DNA from: Microbacterium esteraromaticum
GTDB lineage: Bacteria > Actinomycetota > Actinomycetes > Actinomycetales > Microbacteriaceae
Reading direction: 5' to 3'
DNA length: 64,000 nt
NCBI RefSeq assembly: GCF_900163815.1
Contig: NZ_FUKO01000019.1
Location: 496,001 to 560,000 of the forward strand
Every line of letters begins with the position of its first letter. Position 1 is the first letter of the stretch. The translations under genes and the position numbers were made by a program. Shown piece by piece: positions 1 through 5,208 of the stretch. The notes below the pieces were generated by a model. That model saw only the letters and a list, made by a program, of their open reading frames with translations, had not been told where the DNA came from and did no database searches.

Positions 1-116
1 AGATGGTCTCGATGCGCGGCACTGACATCGTGCGGGTGCCGTTCGCCGAAGCGCTGGTCGAGCTCAACACGGTGCCGCTCGCTCGCTACGAGGAGGCGTC
101 CGCGCTCTTCGGGTGA
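1..116 (+). CDS. pfkA: ATP-dependent 6-phosphofructokinase, C-terminal fragment
   Basis: The window opens inside a gene whose last 37 codons read from position 3 to a TGA at 114-116. The tail contains RGTDIVRVPFAEAL and then NTVPLARYEEASALFG, which matches the end of actinobacterial 6-phosphofructokinases (GTDIVRVP, then a TVP..RY.EA..FFG/LFG ending). The family phosphorylates fructose-6-phosphate in glycolysis. Only the extreme C-terminus is visible, so the identification rests on recognising this tail and the active site cannot be checked. Confidence 0.75.
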   Translation, partial: MVSMRGTDIVRVPFAEALVELNTVPLARYEEASALFG

Positions 117-187
117 GCCCGCGCAGCATCCGCCTCGGGCGGGTATCGGAGCCCCGCATCCGCCACTAGTGCTCGCAGCAGCGGAGT

Positions 188-240
188 GCGTCCCAGAAAA
201 GGCCGGTTGGTTTCCGCAGCACCAGCCATTTGTGGGACAC
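188..240. repeat. Imperfect palindrome related to the 1339-1452 repeats
   Basis: The left arm GTCCCAGAAAAGGCCGGTTG (190-209) pairs with the right arm at 220-240, whose reverse complement reads GTGTCCCACAAATGGCTGGTG. About 18 of 22 aligned positions agree. The right arm also matches the outer arm of the repeat at 1427-1452 at about 15 of 20 positions. It lies between the 3' ends of pfkA and the DUF559 gene. It could act as a terminator, but its relation to the repeat beyond the other end of the same gene suggests a mobile-element relic. Confidence 0.55.
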
Positions 241-244
241 GCTG

Positions 245-1237
245 TCAACCGCGTCCCGGACGCCATCCTGCGTCGAACAGCGCGACGGCTACCTTGTCGA
301 CGGCGATCTGCGGATCCGGTCGTAGATGGTGGCTGAGGATGCGCACATGCTGCCAGTGTTGCGCCCGAATTGCATCCCAACGATCGGCATCCTTGGCGAA
401 TTGACCGGCCTCCGCGTGACCCCGGCCGTCGTACTCCGGCGCCACTCGGTATTTCGGATAGGCGAGATCGAGCCGTGCGACGAAGCGGCCGCTGTCGTCC
501 ACCAGGTTCATGTTCAGAACTGGCTCGGGGAGGCCTGCGCGCGTCAGCACCAGCCGCAATCGGCTCTCCTCCGAGCTTTCCGATCCCGAGCGGATCTCCT
601 GCAGGGCGGCTCGCAGCAGCCTGCGCACATCGCCTGCCTCGGCGACTTCGCGGCGCAGGTCGTCGAGGGTGACCAACCGTCGCCGGGGGTGGATGAGGAA
701 GTCGCCGGCGACGATCAGGTCATCCAGGCCCCATTGCGAGGCCGATTGACGCCACATGCGCGCCGGGTGCTCGATCGGCAGTCCGCCAGCTCGCCAGCGG
801 GCCGACTCTCGTGCCTGAAGGCGATGTCCCCGGACACCGTTCCGACGGGGGAGCGGATGCGGGCGCCGAACGGACACGTGCACCTCACGTCGGTCGGTGG
901 TCGTGTATGGCAGGGGACAGCCCAGGACAGCGAGTCCCGTCTCGTGGCTCAGGAATTGATGAGGGGTGAACGCTACGACGTAGCCCTCGATATCGTCGCG
1001 CAGACGAGTCGAGAGGCGCTGCATCCGCTGAGTGGGTGTGAGGTTGTCCTGATCGCTCCCTCCCTCAGCATCCGCTGCTTCCTCCTTGCTGCGGATTCGC
1101 CGGACGCCACGGGTCGGTGACGAGAGATCAGCAGCCCGCAGACGAGATCGCGCAATGCCGGCCTCGCGGGCCCGCGCGACATGGAAGGGGCCATCGACGA
1201 AGTCATCGGGAAGCGGCTGCCGGCGAGTCATCCCCAT
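245..1237 (-). CDS. AbiEi-like / DUF559 endonuclease-fold protein
   Basis: A 330-residue protein. The N-terminus (about residues 15-50, FHVARAREAGIARSRLRAAD... RGVRR) resembles the winged-helix start of AbiEi-type antitoxin proteins. The C-terminus (about 225-330) has the DUF559/Vsr-like layout, with EYDGRGH at residue 268 and a following DADRWDAIRAQHWQHVRI, as in PD-(D/E)XK nuclease-fold proteins common in Microbacteriaceae. The function of these proteins is not established and nuclease activity is not shown. The ATG at 1237 has GGTGAG just upstream; an in-frame ATG at 1231 is the alternative. Related palindromic repeats lie beyond both ends, suggesting a mobile or duplicated unit. Confidence 0.8.
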   Translation of the reverse strand: MGMTRRQPLPDDFVDGPFHVARAREAGIARSRLRAADLSSPTRGVRRIRSKEEAADAEGGSDQDNLTPTQRMQRLSTRLRDDIEGYVVAFTPHQFLSHETGLAVLGCPLPYTTTDRREVHVSVRRPHPLPRRNGVRGHRLQARESARWRAGGLPIEHPARMWRQSASQWGLDDLIVAGDFLIHPRRRLVTLDDLRREVAEAGDVRRLLRAALQEIRSGSESSEESRLRLVLTRAGLPEPVLNMNLVDDSGRFVARLDLAYPKYRVAPEYDGRGHAEAGQFAKDADRWDAIRAQHWQHVRILSHHLRPDPQIAVDKVAVALFDAGWRPGRG

Positions 1238-1338
1238 ATCTCACCCGGTCGGCACGGCGGTCCGGTACCGGATCCCCACGAACTGTGCACAAGCTGCGAC
1301 GACCCGCCATTGTGCAGGAGGAAGGAGATCCGTGTCCC

Positions 1339-1389
1339 TGTCTCAGTAGTGGCGGCTCACCGTGCCGACCACTCGCCAGTGCTGAGACA
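1339..1389. repeat. Palindromic repeat B1 (TGTCTCAG ends)
   Basis: TGTCTCAG at 1339-1346 is inverted as CTGAGACA at 1382-1389. The arms continue as AGTGGCG on the left and CGCCAGTG on the right, with interruptions. It is the first of two adjacent hairpins upstream of the DUF559 gene. Confidence 0.55.
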
Positions 1390-1407
1390 TGCCGAGGGAG
1401 TCGGGCC

Positions 1408-1452
1408 AGAAGTGGCGGGTGCGCGGTGAGCACACCCACCACTTCTGAGACA
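1408..1452. repeat. Palindromic repeat B2, with a third TGTCTCAG end
   Basis: AGAAGTGGCGGGTG (1408-1421) pairs with CACCCACCACTTCT (1433-1446) with a single mismatch. The right arm continues into CTGAGACA (1445-1452), which is inverted relative to the TGTCTCAG at 1339. The outer ends at 1339 and 1452 thus form terminal inverted repeats of a 114-bp unit resembling a miniature inverted-repeat element. No transposase is present. It may also terminate transcription of the downstream end of the peptidase gene. Confidence 0.55.
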
Positions 1453-1488
1453 TGCCGCGGATGCAGGGGAGCGGCGCGCGCGCCGAGG

Positions 1489-3594
1489 CTAATCGGCGAG
1501 ACCGAAGACGTCCAGCATCCACGCGATTTCGAACGCGCGTTCGCGCCAGGCGTTGTAGCGACCGCTGACGCCGCCGTGACCAGCTGACATCTCGCACTTC
1601 ATGATCACGTCGGCAGCGCCCGCCTCGCGCAGCCGCGCGACCCATTTGGCCGGCTCCACGTACAGCACGCGCGTGTCGTTCAGCGATGTCATCGCGAGGA
1701 TGCGGGGATACGCCACACCATCGCGCACGTTCTCGTACGGCGTGTACGACTTCATGTACGCGTAGACATCGGCGTCGTGCAGCGGGTCGCCCCACTCGTC
1801 CCACTCCACCACGGTCAGCGGCAGCGACGGGTCGAGGATCGAGGTGAGCGCGTCGACGAACGGCACGGCGGCGAGGATGCCGGCGAACAGCTCGGGTGCG
1901 ATATTCGCCACAGCGCCCATCAGCAGACCGCCAGCGCTGCCACCCTCGGCGATCATCCGGTCAGGGGTGGTGACGCCGGTGTCGATCAGATGCTGCGCGC
2001 AGGCGACGAAGTCGGTGAAGGTGTTGCGCTTGTTCAGCTCCTTGCCGTCCTCGTACCAGTGGCGTCCCATCTCGCCGCCGCCGCGCACGTGCGCGACCGC
2101 GAAGACGACGCCGCGGTCGAGCATCGACAGTCGCATCATCGAGAAGCCCGGGTCGATCGAGTGTTCGTAGGCCCCGTATCCGTACAGGTGCACCGGCCGG
2201 ACAGATGCGCCGGGTTCACCGAAGGAGCGCTTCCAGACGAGAGAGATCGGCACCAGCACGCCGTCGGATGCTGTCGCCCACACCCGCCGCTGGCCGTACT
2301 CGGCCGCGTCATAGCCGCCGAGTACCGCAAGCTGCTTGCGCACGTGCTTCTCACCGGTCGCGACTTCGAGATCGAGCACGGTCGACGGTGTGACGAACGA
2401 GGTGTACCCCATTCGCAGGAACGGAGTGTGCCATTCCGGGTTGCCGCTGAAGTACGCCTCGAACAGCGGCTCGTCGAAACCGATCTCGTCGAGGATGCCG
2501 GTCTTGATGTCCATGACCGCGGTGCGCGACAGACCCTCTCGGCGGTATTCGACGGTCGCGAAGTCGCGGAAGCAGTCCACATCGAGGATCCGGCGGCCAG
2601 CGGTGTGCTCCAGCAGCATCTGGCGCGCACCCTGCGGGTCCGTCGCCGCCACCGATATCAACTCGAAATCGAGAGCATTCTCGTTGTGCAGGATCAGCAG
2701 ACGATCCTCGCCGTCGACGACGGCGTGATCGACTGAGTATTCGACCCCGTCGCGACGCGGCCACACCACGAGCGGCTCACCAGTCACATCGGCGAGATCC
2801 ACCAGCAGCTCTTCGCTGGTGATCTTCGAGCCGAGACCGATCACCAGGTACCGCTTGCTGCGGGTGATCCCCGCACCGAGCCAGAACCGCTCGTCCGGTT
2901 CGTGGAACAGCTGCACATCGGCATCCGGAGCCGTGCCGATCCGATGCAGCCAGAGGGTGTCCGGCCGCCACGCCTCATCACGCGTCGTGTACAGAATGCT
3001 CGAGCCATCGGGGGTGAAGAACGCCTGAGCGGTGTTGTCGACGACGTCTGAGAGCGTCTCACCGGAGACGAGATCGCGCACGTGCACGGTGTACACCTCG
3101 GATCCTTCGACATCGACCGACCACAGCAGGCGCGTGCCATCGTCTGACACATCGAACGCGCCGAGCGAGAAGAACTCGTGGCCTTCGGCTTCGATATTGC
3201 CGTCCAGAAGGATCTGCTCACCGGGAACCGGAACACCAGGTTCAAGTACCGGGGGAGTCCAGTCGTCGCTCGCCACCGGGGTACGGCACTGGATGCCGTA
3301 TTGCGCGCCCTCTACGGTGCGCCCGTAGAACCACCAATCGCCTCGGCGGGTCGGCACGGAAAGATCCGTCTCCTGCACGCGTGCCTTGACCTCGTCGAAC
3401 AGCTGCTCGCGCAGCGACGCGAGATGCGCGGTTCTGGTTTCTGCATAGGCGTTCTCTGACTCGAGGTGCTCGACGACCTCAGGATCCTCCTTGACACGGA
3501 GCCATTCGTAGGCGTCTTCGAAAGTATCGCCATGGTGGGTGCGTGTGGTGGGACGTCGGCCTGCAACGGGCGGCTGGATGCTGGAATCGCTCAC
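1489..3594 (-). CDS. ptrB: S9 family peptidase, oligopeptidase B-like
   Basis: A 701-residue serine peptidase, the usual length for oligopeptidase B / prolyl oligopeptidases, which cut short peptides in the cytosol. The N-terminal part (to about residue 410) has the beta-propeller-type sequence of the family. The C-terminal alpha/beta-hydrolase domain has the nucleophile in GGSAGG (Ser553), Asp640 in LNDTR and His673 in SAGHGG. No signal peptide is evident. The reading frame stays open upstream to 4077, but that extension is low-complexity. The GTG at 3594 is preferred because TAGCGT ends 7 nt upstream, the leaderless arrangement seen throughout this window, and because it gives family length. 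Preference for basic residues is inferred from the subfamily. Confidence 0.88.
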   Translation of the reverse strand: MSDSSIQPPVAGRRPTTRTHHGDTFEDAYEWLRVKEDPEVVEHLESENAYAETRTAHLASLREQLFDEVKARVQETDLSVPTRRGDWWFYGRTVEGAQYGIQCRTPVASDDWTPPVLEPGVPVPGEQILLDGNIEAEGHEFFSLGAFDVSDDGTRLLWSVDVEGSEVYTVHVRDLVSGETLSDVVDNTAQAFFTPDGSSILYTTRDEAWRPDTLWLHRIGTAPDADVQLFHEPDERFWLGAGITRSKRYLVIGLGSKITSEELLVDLADVTGEPLVVWPRRDGVEYSVDHAVVDGEDRLLILHNENALDFELISVAATDPQGARQMLLEHTAGRRILDVDCFRDFATVEYRREGLSRTAVMDIKTGILDEIGFDEPLFEAYFSGNPEWHTPFLRMGYTSFVTPSTVLDLEVATGEKHVRKQLAVLGGYDAAEYGQRRVWATASDGVLVPISLVWKRSFGEPGASVRPVHLYGYGAYEHSIDPGFSMMRLSMLDRGVVFAVAHVRGGGEMGRHWYEDGKELNKRNTFTDFVACAQHLIDTGVTTPDRMIAEGGSAGGLLMGAVANIAPELFAGILAAVPFVDALTSILDPSLPLTVVEWDEWGDPLHDADVYAYMKSYTPYENVRDGVAYPRILAMTSLNDTRVLYVEPAKWVARLREAGAADVIMKCEMSAGHGGVSGRYNAWRERAFEIAWMLDVFGLAD

Positions 3595-3601
3595 TCGCTC
3601 A

Positions 3602-3607
3602 ACGCTA
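3602..3607 (-). promoter_or_regulatory. -10 box of the S9 peptidase (leaderless)
   Basis: TAGCGT on the minus strand, 7 nt before the GTG at 3594. It decides the start. Confidence 0.55.
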
Positions 3608-3744
3608 CCCGAGGCGAGTTGACCGGGTGGAGGAGGGGTGGGAGGATTCACACGGGCCCGGAAACGGAAAACGAACCCACGGTGAACTCTTCGTTCGTCA
3701 CGCCGACTTCGGCACTTCCCTGGTAGATCCAACGAAAGAGAACG

Positions 3745-5208
3745 GTGGAAACCGCAGCCCTCATCGTCGTGCTGGTCATCGCGCTGGCATTGTTCTTCGA
3801 CTTCACCAATGGATTCCACGACACCGCGAACGCGATGGCGACGCCGATCGCGACCGGAGCCCTCAAGCCCAAGACGGCTGTGCTGCTTGCGGCGCTGCTC
3901 AATCTGGTCGGCGCGTTCCTCTCGACGGAGGTGGCCAAGACCGTATCCGGTGGCATCGTCCGAGAATCCGAGATCAGTCATGCGATCCTGCCCCAGTTGA
4001 TCTTCGCCGGTCTCATCGGCGCGATCACCTGGAACATGCTGACCTGGTTGCTTGGCCTGCCGTCCAGCTCCTCGCACGCACTCTTCGGTGGCCTCATCGG
4101 CGCCACCCTCGTGGGAGTCGGCGCGTCAGGCATCGACTTCGGGGTCGTCCTGTCGAAGGTCATCCTGCCGGCTCTGATCGCTCCGCTGACAGCGGGAATC
4201 ATCGCGTACCTCGCGACAAAGATCGCCTATTCCATTACGCGGCGATACGACGGCAAACCGGATGGCCGTGACTGCTTCCGCTGGGGACAGATCTTCACCT
4301 CATCGCTGGTGGCTCTGGCGCACGGCACCAACGACGCGCAGAAGACGATGGGTGTCATCACCCTCGCACTGATCACCGTCGGCTGGCAGACCGGCGACCC
4401 GACCAGCGAGGACTTCCACAACCCCGAGTTCTGGGTCATCGTCGCCTGTGCTTTCACGATCGCGCTCGGCACCTACCTCGGCGGCTGGCGCATCATCCGC
4501 ACGCTCGGCAAGGGACTGACCGAGGTCAAGCCCGCGCAGGGTTTCGCAGCCGAGAGCTCAACCGCAGCGACCATTCTCGCTTCCAGCGCGCTGGGCTTCG
4601 CCCTCTCGACGACGCAGGTCGCATCGGGCTCAGTCATCGGATCCGGCCTCGGTCGCCGCGGTTCCGTCGTGCGGTGGGGGACAGCGGGGCGCATCGCTGT
4701 CGGATGGCTGCTGACGCTTCCGGCCGCCGGCGCGGTCGGCGGTCTCGCCGCCTGGCTGGTCGTGCTCTGGGGCAATTGGGGCGTCGTGGTCGACGCGGTG
4801 ATCGCCGTCGTCATCATCGTCGGCCTGTTCCTGCGCTCGCGCCGCGACGCGGTGACAGCATCCAACGCGATGAGCAGCATCGCCAAGTCCGGCCAGGCCG
4901 TGGAAACCCCCGAGGTCCCTGGCCCCACGCGTCGCACCACGCGGATGGAGCTCGTCCGAGCGCTGGCTCGCGCAGAGCGCAAGGCCGACGAGGCAGAGCG
5001 GGCCGCACGCAAGGCCAAGAAGCTCAAGAAGTCCGGCGGCAGTCCCGCGGAGATCAAGGCGGCGCGCAAGGCCGCGCAGCGCGCGGCGGAGAAGTTCGCC
5101 GATGCGCAAGCGGCAGCGCAGGAGTGGGAGCTGCTCAGTGCGAGCCGGCGTGCGCGCGCTGAGCTTGCCGAATGGGAGATCTCGATCGAAGAGGAGGCTC
5201 CGCGATGA
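3745..5208 (+). CDS. pit: PiT-family inorganic phosphate transporter with charged C-terminal tail
   Basis: A 487-residue low-affinity phosphate permease. Both halves carry the PiT signature: GFHDTANAMATPIATGALKP near the N-terminus and ALAHGTNDAQKTMGVI in the middle. About ten hydrophobic segments fill residues 1-370. The last 90 or so residues (about 395-487) are unusual: a strongly charged Ala/Lys/Arg/Glu-rich stretch (AERKADEAERAARKAKKLKK...) predicted to be helical or coiled coil and cytosolic. The start is a GTG preceded by AAAGAG. The stop overlaps the ATG of the next gene (ATGA), so the two are probably translationally coupled. Confidence 0.92.
   Translation: METAALIVVLVIALALFFDFTNGFHDTANAMATPIATGALKPKTAVLLAALLNLVGAFLSTEVAKTVSGGIVRESEISHAILPQLIFAGLIGAITWNMLTWLLGLPSSSSHALFGGLIGATLVGVGASGIDFGVVLSKVILPALIAPLTAGIIAYLATKIAYSITRRYDGKPDGRDCFRWGQIFTSSLVALAHGTNDAQKTMGVITLALITVGWQTGDPTSEDFHNPEFWVIVACAFTIALGTYLGGWRIIRTLGKGLTEVKPAQGFAAESSTAATILASSALGFALSTTQVASGSVIGSGLGRRGSVVRWGTAGRIAVGWLLTLPAAGAVGGLAAWLVVLWGNWGVVVDAVIAVVIIVGLFLRSRRDAVTASNAMSSIAKSGQAVETPEVPGPTRRTTRMELVRALARAERKADEAERAARKAKKLKKSGGSPAEIKAARKAAQRAAEKFADAQAAAQEWELLSASRRARAELAEWEISIEEEAPR

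Follow-up and report, generated by a model that had tools for sequence, protein, structure and literature searches.

An AbiEi-like gene with a nuclease-type domain as a possible resident partner of a REP-like palindrome family in Microbacterium

Results

The locus and its protein

The window (the whole stretch of 64,000 nucleotides that was analysed, positions 496001-560000 of contig C21 in the 3.37 Mb source genome, G000, of Microbacterium esteraromaticum) holds near its start a minus-strand gene. We take its neighbours to be pfkA, which ends at 116, and a gene for an S9-type peptidase, whose 3' end at 1489 faces it. The features of this part are as follows.

1..116, plus strand: 3' end of the left neighbour, presumably pfkA (reading frame)
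186..242, minus strand: 3'-side palindrome of the gene (covariance model R1, 59.1 bits)
245..1237, minus strand: gene for the AbiEi-like/DUF559-type protein, 330 aa (reading frame, domain matches, homologue alignment)
278..580, minus strand: stretch coding the PD-(D/E)XK/DUF559-like domain, about aa 220-320 (Pfam matches, alignment of 30 homologues, weak 3hrl match)
629..1027, minus strand: stretch coding the AbiEi match, aa 71-203 (PADLOC PDLC02249, E 1e-6, profile positions 52-178 of 184)
1336..1392, plus strand: first 5'-side palindrome of the gene (covariance model R1, 61.8 bits)
1404..1455, minus strand: second 5'-side palindrome of the gene (covariance model R1, 55.6 bits)
1489..3600, minus strand: right neighbour, presumably an S9-type peptidase gene, given as far as the searched stretch (reading frame)

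The gene and its three palindromes had been proposed in the original prediction, and the open reading frame call and the covariance model bear out their positions. The 5'-side palindromes form a doublet about 100-220 bp upstream of the start codon, with a direct-repeat spacing of 63 bp (repeat family D1). The unit at 1339-1452 begins with TGTCTCAG and ends with its complement, and the second palindrome is missing TGTCTC from the outer end of its 5' arm. No Rfam family matches at E ≤ 1 within positions 1-4000.

In PADLOC, four of five proteins matched the AbiEi profile (L176 did not). Pfam AbiEi_4, scanned against 11 proteins, matched only L178, below cut-off, and not the 330-aa protein. The Pfam matches of the latter up to E 1 are DUF559 and MTES_1575 (PF04480, PF18741), both below cut-off (13.9 of 20.6 and 16.5 of 38.2 bits), and PF01797 is not among them; the DUF559 cut-off is passed by five of ten homologues (L087, L161, L182, L190, and L155). 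The likeness to these families lies in the C-terminal domain and its conserved E, D, E, H, and D positions, and the difference lies in the weak scores of this protein and in a Pfam description that, as shown, mentions no palindromes. In the alignment of 30 homologues E224, E268, H274, and D283 are invariant and D257 is nearly so, and we take these five residues to be the putative PD-(D/E)XK active site. The C-terminal domain gives a weak match to the solved structure 3hrl (E 0.05), and structure prediction on three sequences had a mean pLDDT of 37, too low to be of use. Kinship with AbiEi suggests an N-terminal winged helix, the AbiEi match itself covering aa 71-203 and not the N-terminus. A homologue search of named genome contigs found two close loci, both in Microbacterium, and homologues are present in 93 of 99 Microbacterium genomes.

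A palindrome family in the source genome

The covariance model, drawn by hand with arms of 21 bp and a gap of 13 bp, finds nine palindromes at four places in the genome with E 6.5e-10 or better on the best strand, and the best match at any further place has E 1.48; the scores of the nine are partly circular, because all nine palindromes built the model. Independently of the model, TGTCYCAGAARTGGCGG with one mismatch allowed has five matches in the genome versus none for the reversed control, and on this count a chance origin was rejected. A looser 14-base pattern with two mismatches shows no excess over control in the genome (44+44 versus 53+62). The palindromes are real and form one family of nine copies.

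The six palindromes away from the gene are all doublets with a period of 63 or 64 bp (C18:3603-3722, C18:38760-38879, and C48:135889-136009). They sit between what we take to be the 3' end of an ABC permease gene and dcd, DivIVA-like and fur-like genes, and prpD and prpB. By eye, none of the adjoining reading frames belongs to the DUF559/AbiEi-like gene family. The original prediction had named repeats at intergenic sites with no link to DUF559 genes as one observation that would speak against it. The repeats do occur at intergenic sites away from the gene, and in the source genome alone such a lack of linkage would seem to hold, but across the genus they are not independent of the gene.

A separate gene, apparently AbiEi-like, lies about 2 kb from the doublet at C18:3603-3722 (L032:5930-6622). 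A TGTCTCACAAGTGATTGACAAG stretch occurs at two contig ends of the source genome (L038:5010-5043 and L039:1-33), inverted in one relative to the other, and may be the end of an insertion sequence.

Palindromes flanking homologous genes

The flanks of homologous genes were examined at 70 loci, 30 returned by the genus search and 40 picked from among the matches listed; six of the 30 (L086, L089, L090, L092, L099, and L105) were flagged with an internal stop, and the script read all 70 as open for at least 285 codons. The model built from the source-genome palindromes has matches beside most of the 30. In a sequence-blind scan, 38 of the 70 homologues have hairpins scoring at least 12 on both sides, and 58 have such a hairpin on one side or both. 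Of the control genes (93 script-picked long reading frames, not annotated genes, drawn from the window and from eleven further loci in the source genome) none has them on both sides and eight have one on either side; 440-bp control pieces have one in 28 of 466. At a score of at least 9 the both-sided counts are 54/70 homologues and 4/93 control genes. The original prediction had asked whether other DUF559 genes carry the same flanks, and on these numbers many do.

The two flanks of one gene also resemble each other. For the 54 of 70 loci with a hairpin scoring at least 9 on each side (the other 16 are excluded from this test and from that on protein identity), the mean left-right similarity is 29.3 versus 10.5 after shuffling (standard deviation 0.76), a value reached in none of 10,000 shuffles, and the own partner is the best or tied in 32/54. 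The four control genes with hairpins on both sides have a mean left-right similarity of 7.5. Palindrome similarity rises with protein identity at the same 54 loci (Mantel rho 0.31, 0/2000 shuffles), from 10.2-10.8 at identities below 50% to 15.6 at 50-60% and 25.3 above 60%. Protein lineages therefore have palindrome sequences of their own: TGTCYCAGAAG in the source genome, and TGTCCGGGTTG, TGTCCCACTT, GTGTCCAAGACAC, GGTCGCAGTT, TTCGAATCGCGC, and others elsewhere.

The pfkA-peptidase site is also occupied by a second AbiEi-DUF559 lineage, whose palindromes are of a CAGG type. It has hairpins on both sides at 9 of 11 loci (L146 was not parsed and L128 has no right hairpin), with a raw left-right similarity of 18-43 in eight loci and 13 in one. 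Beyond the genus, matching palindromes were seen by eye on both sides in 4 of 30 loci (L193, L197, L198, and L216), one of them on an Arthrobacter plasmid, and the remaining loci have a palindrome on one side or none.

Spacing and comparison with AbiEi-type operators

The doublets of the source genome repeat every 63-64 bp. At 32 gene loci, 55 direct pairs of half-sites lie within 70 bp of each other, the spacing being 21 bp in 29 of them, 42 bp in seven, and 63 bp in 13. A histogram of hairpin distances was uninformative (distances at 62-65 bp: 22/299 in gene loci, 16/214, 15/184, and 14/204 in pfkA-peptidase loci). AbiEi-type proteins are described as binding inverted repeats, and the operator of one of them, Rv2827c, as 23-bp repeats with gaps of 13 bp within pairs and 4 bp between them (PMC7319586); its period of 63 bp is a sum that we made from these published lengths. 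The present system shares with Rv2827c the AbiEi-like stretch and tandem inverted-repeat pairs of 63-bp period. It differs in the fused nuclease-type domain and in palindromes that also lie beyond the 3' end of the gene and elsewhere. It differs from AbiEi itself in the repeat gap, which in the Streptococcus operator is given as 3 bp, not 13 (PMC7319586). An AbiE type IV toxin-antitoxin system would have a DUF1814 toxin gene next to the AbiEi gene; by appearance, the neighbours here resemble pfkA and a gene for an S9-type peptidase.

One explanation is that the palindromes are only operators of the AbiEi type, by which the protein controls itself and perhaps other genes without mobilising anything, the 3'-side and remote copies having arisen by duplication, by conversion, or by selection as regulatory sites. 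The shared 63-bp period, the 21-bp half-site spacing, the position of the doublet upstream of the start codon, and the AbiEi-like stretch in the protein all favour it. However, promoter operators do not explain palindromes on both sides of 38 of 70 homologues, nor doublets at unrelated genes, nor the one between prpD and prpB, genes that overlap in 13 of 30 loci. We regard this explanation as rather unlikely.

A search for the prpD-prpB junction matched 354 of 366 genomes, and the 30 returned loci that were examined favour full-length matches. Stop and start overlap in the 13 loci just mentioned, the genes are 14 bp apart in one, and 59-190 bp lie between them in 16. Many of these longer gaps hold, by eye, palindromes of several families, including the doublet of the source genome. 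The overlapping stop and start (L254-L283) looks like a recurrent landing site for several palindrome families in the genus; GTTTCGTCTC...GAGACGAAAC palindromes are seen there in L257, L259, and L260.

Position and inheritance of the gene

Judged by neighbouring genes, the 70 homologues occupy 17 different sites; 25 are at the pfkA-peptidase site and 13 at one other. At the pfkA-peptidase site the identity of the gene tracks that of the peptidase (rho 0.60, 0/5000 shuffles, 22 of 25 loci), and for this one neighbour at this one site mean identity over the 22 loci is 57% for the gene versus 88% for the C-terminal 199 aa of the peptidase. The gene thus keeps its locus within a lineage and evolves fast, and appears to be inherited mostly vertically.

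The original prediction had suggested comparing the pfkA-peptidase interval among relatives. Among 30 such loci, seven hold a lineage-1 gene and 11 hold one of lineage 2; nine have neither, and the other three show a contig end or another frame. Six of the nine are short gene-free intervals of 11-83 bp in relatives, without a gene-type palindrome (L122, L125, L126, L129, L133, and L147), three of which contain a short terminator-like inverted repeat. In L131 the interval holds a long palindrome alone and no gene.

Such empty intervals, the presence of either lineage at one site, and the occurrence of the gene in both orientations (of the 25 lineage-1 loci, 14 have it running in the direction of the peptidase and 11 in the opposite one) would suit a transposon or a homing-type element, in which the nuclease cuts the empty pfkA-peptidase site and gene and palindromes are copied in as one block. 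Against this, gene and peptidase identities agree and lineages keep to their sites. No target duplication is seen above control at the 54 gene-bearing blocks (longest common substrings of up to 12, versus up to 13 in 586 mismatched pairs), where old duplications could have decayed. There was no homologue match in phages and none in viral contigs, searched with one peptide pattern, and the plasmid matches are three Arthrobacter records only. We find a whole-block transposon or homing-type element improbable, and the original prediction's mobile cassette spanning 188-1452 is not supported, given the 17 sites, a gene divergence that tracks the host, and no target duplication that stands out. A recent cassette jump as the sole explanation and a phage origin were both rejected or ranked low on these findings.

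Dispersed copies across the genus

With stricter filters and both strands counted, 33 of 99 Microbacterium genomes contain palindromes that match the covariance model at E ≤ 1e-4. Copies are present in 23 of 35 genomes with a homologue at E ≤ 1e-50 versus 10 of 64 without (Fisher 1e-6, kinship ignored), and three or more model matches in 19/35 versus 4/64; these counts include copies beside the gene as well as the source genome, from which the model was built. Other genomes have up to 29 model matches, both strands counted. When 14 gene-remote copies were ranked against the gene flanks of 34 genomes, the own genome came in the top seven for 12, and the copies in G006 and G024 ranked the flanks of their own genome only 22nd and 31st. 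(These 14 remain from 24 loci after setting aside three that are themselves gene flanks, five that lack a flank from their own genome for comparison, one skipped for its length, and L227, which was off register.) In G077 and G098 gene-remote copies are TGTCNCAGAAG-type and gene flanks mostly TGTCCGG-type.

PF01797, the RAYT-type domain, is found in one of 99 genus genomes, not including the source genome, and in 5 of 14 control genomes; on this basis REPs driven by a RAYT were rejected or ranked low. The single Y1_Tnp match in the genus is L313 (G040:C15:20980-21342).

Some genomes are rich in palindromes for which no partner was found, as with the CACAACTCCGG family of G070 (19 pattern matches in one 3.2 Mb genome versus none for the control). 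Such genomes would suit a model in which mobility comes from an unrelated transposase acting in trans, with the nuclease gene having settled among the palindromes, a reading that we consider very doubtful, given the near absence of PF01797, the sole transposase family searched, and a palindrome sequence that follows the nuclease lineage. That the palindromes are ordinary bidirectional transcription terminators is scarcely credible: they can form hairpins and adjoin gene 3' ends in the source genome, but terminators are not marked by tandem doublets or by sequence specific to a lineage, such hairpins are rare at control genes, and a scan of 1-1600 found no terminator-like site, a weak test that would miss these palindromes because only loops of 3-8 were allowed.

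At prpD-prpB in G070, the same 22-bp stretch stands on either side of a CACAACTCCGG-family palindrome, and G419 has this stretch once at the junction; of the 14 copies of this family that were compared, this is the one with a duplication, and 13 have none. The palindromes behind the 19 pattern matches in G070 (L284-L312, e.g., C1:2853740, 2671109, and 2655233) read GTTCACAACTCCGGAGAAAC... and make a second family beside that of the nuclease gene, and some of its copies look by eye to be inside reading frames. What we take to be an IS30-like transposase gene lies there between a full and a half palindrome (L298:1499-2755, C1:58823-60079; also L300), and in L311 the end sequence seen in L298 adjoins a different half palindrome, which looks like insertion of this element into palindromes.

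Discussion

In published accounts of REPs and RAYTs, the gene is flanked by its own palindromes, co-varies with them, holds a fixed position, and evolves faster than its neighbours, and REP/REPIN doublets are intergenic and more numerous in genomes that hold the RAYT gene (PMC2817692, PMC3116915, PMC8049555). The Microbacterium genes and palindromes resemble them in each respect, with flanks on both sides, co-variation, a kept position combined with fast evolution, intergenic doublets, and co-occurrence of copies with close homologues. They differ in the partner, which has an AbiEi-like part and a PD-(D/E)XK domain instead of a Y1/HUH domain, and in palindromes that are longer (57 model positions) and few: nine in the source genome, where REP copy number is usually given as over 100 per genome (PMC2817692). 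No GTAG or CGTC tag was seen by eye in the palindromes, and in the text of a paper on GTAG- and CGTC-tagged REPs neither 'actinobacteria' nor 'microbacterium' occurs (PMC3733652). The system is not a member of the REP/RAYT class, and we propose a likeness in working as a hypothesis.

Free-standing homing endonucleases of the Vsr-like kind are likewise small PD-(D/E)XK nuclease genes at a recurrent intergenic site, as here; we know of no flanking cognate palindromes or gene-less copies among their features. In the open literature, no title or opening of an abstract ties DUF559 or AbiEi-nuclease genes to palindromes, and no paper contained both AbiEi and DUF559.

We put at about even the chance that the palindromes are a REP-like family with the AbiEi-like PD-(D/E)XK protein as the resident partner that binds and spreads them. 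We infer the binding, and the spreading by way of the nuclease domain, because of the AbiEi kinship, the 63-64-bp period, the arms and gap of 21 and 13 bp, and the half-site distances of 21, 42, and 63 bp. The AbiEi-like part would bind the arms of about 21 bp as double-stranded DNA, as is known for AbiEi-type operators, and binding upstream would probably also repress the gene. The fused PD-(D/E)XK domain would then cut at or near the bound palindromes, and repair or strand transfer may then create further pairs of palindromes elsewhere between genes. In this reading the gene itself stays at its locus within a lineage, mostly vertically inherited and fast-evolving, and co-varies with its palindromes.

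More tentatively, and with the balance somewhat against it, this could be a second, independently evolved REP-type system, in which an AbiEi-like PD-(D/E)XK protein copies its own operator-like pairs by cutting, without an HUH transposase, each lineage having its own palindrome, and which reaches other Actinomycetota. In the papers cited above, REP-like repeats go with a single kind of enzyme, the RAYT. If repeats were partnered here by an antitoxin-like protein with a restriction-type nuclease domain, the REP way of life would have arisen more than once. It would also suggest a function for a large and little-studied gene family, present in 93 of 99 genomes of the genus, and would account for many palindromes between Microbacterium genes; recognition could be tested directly on the natural combinations of protein lineage and palindrome sequence.
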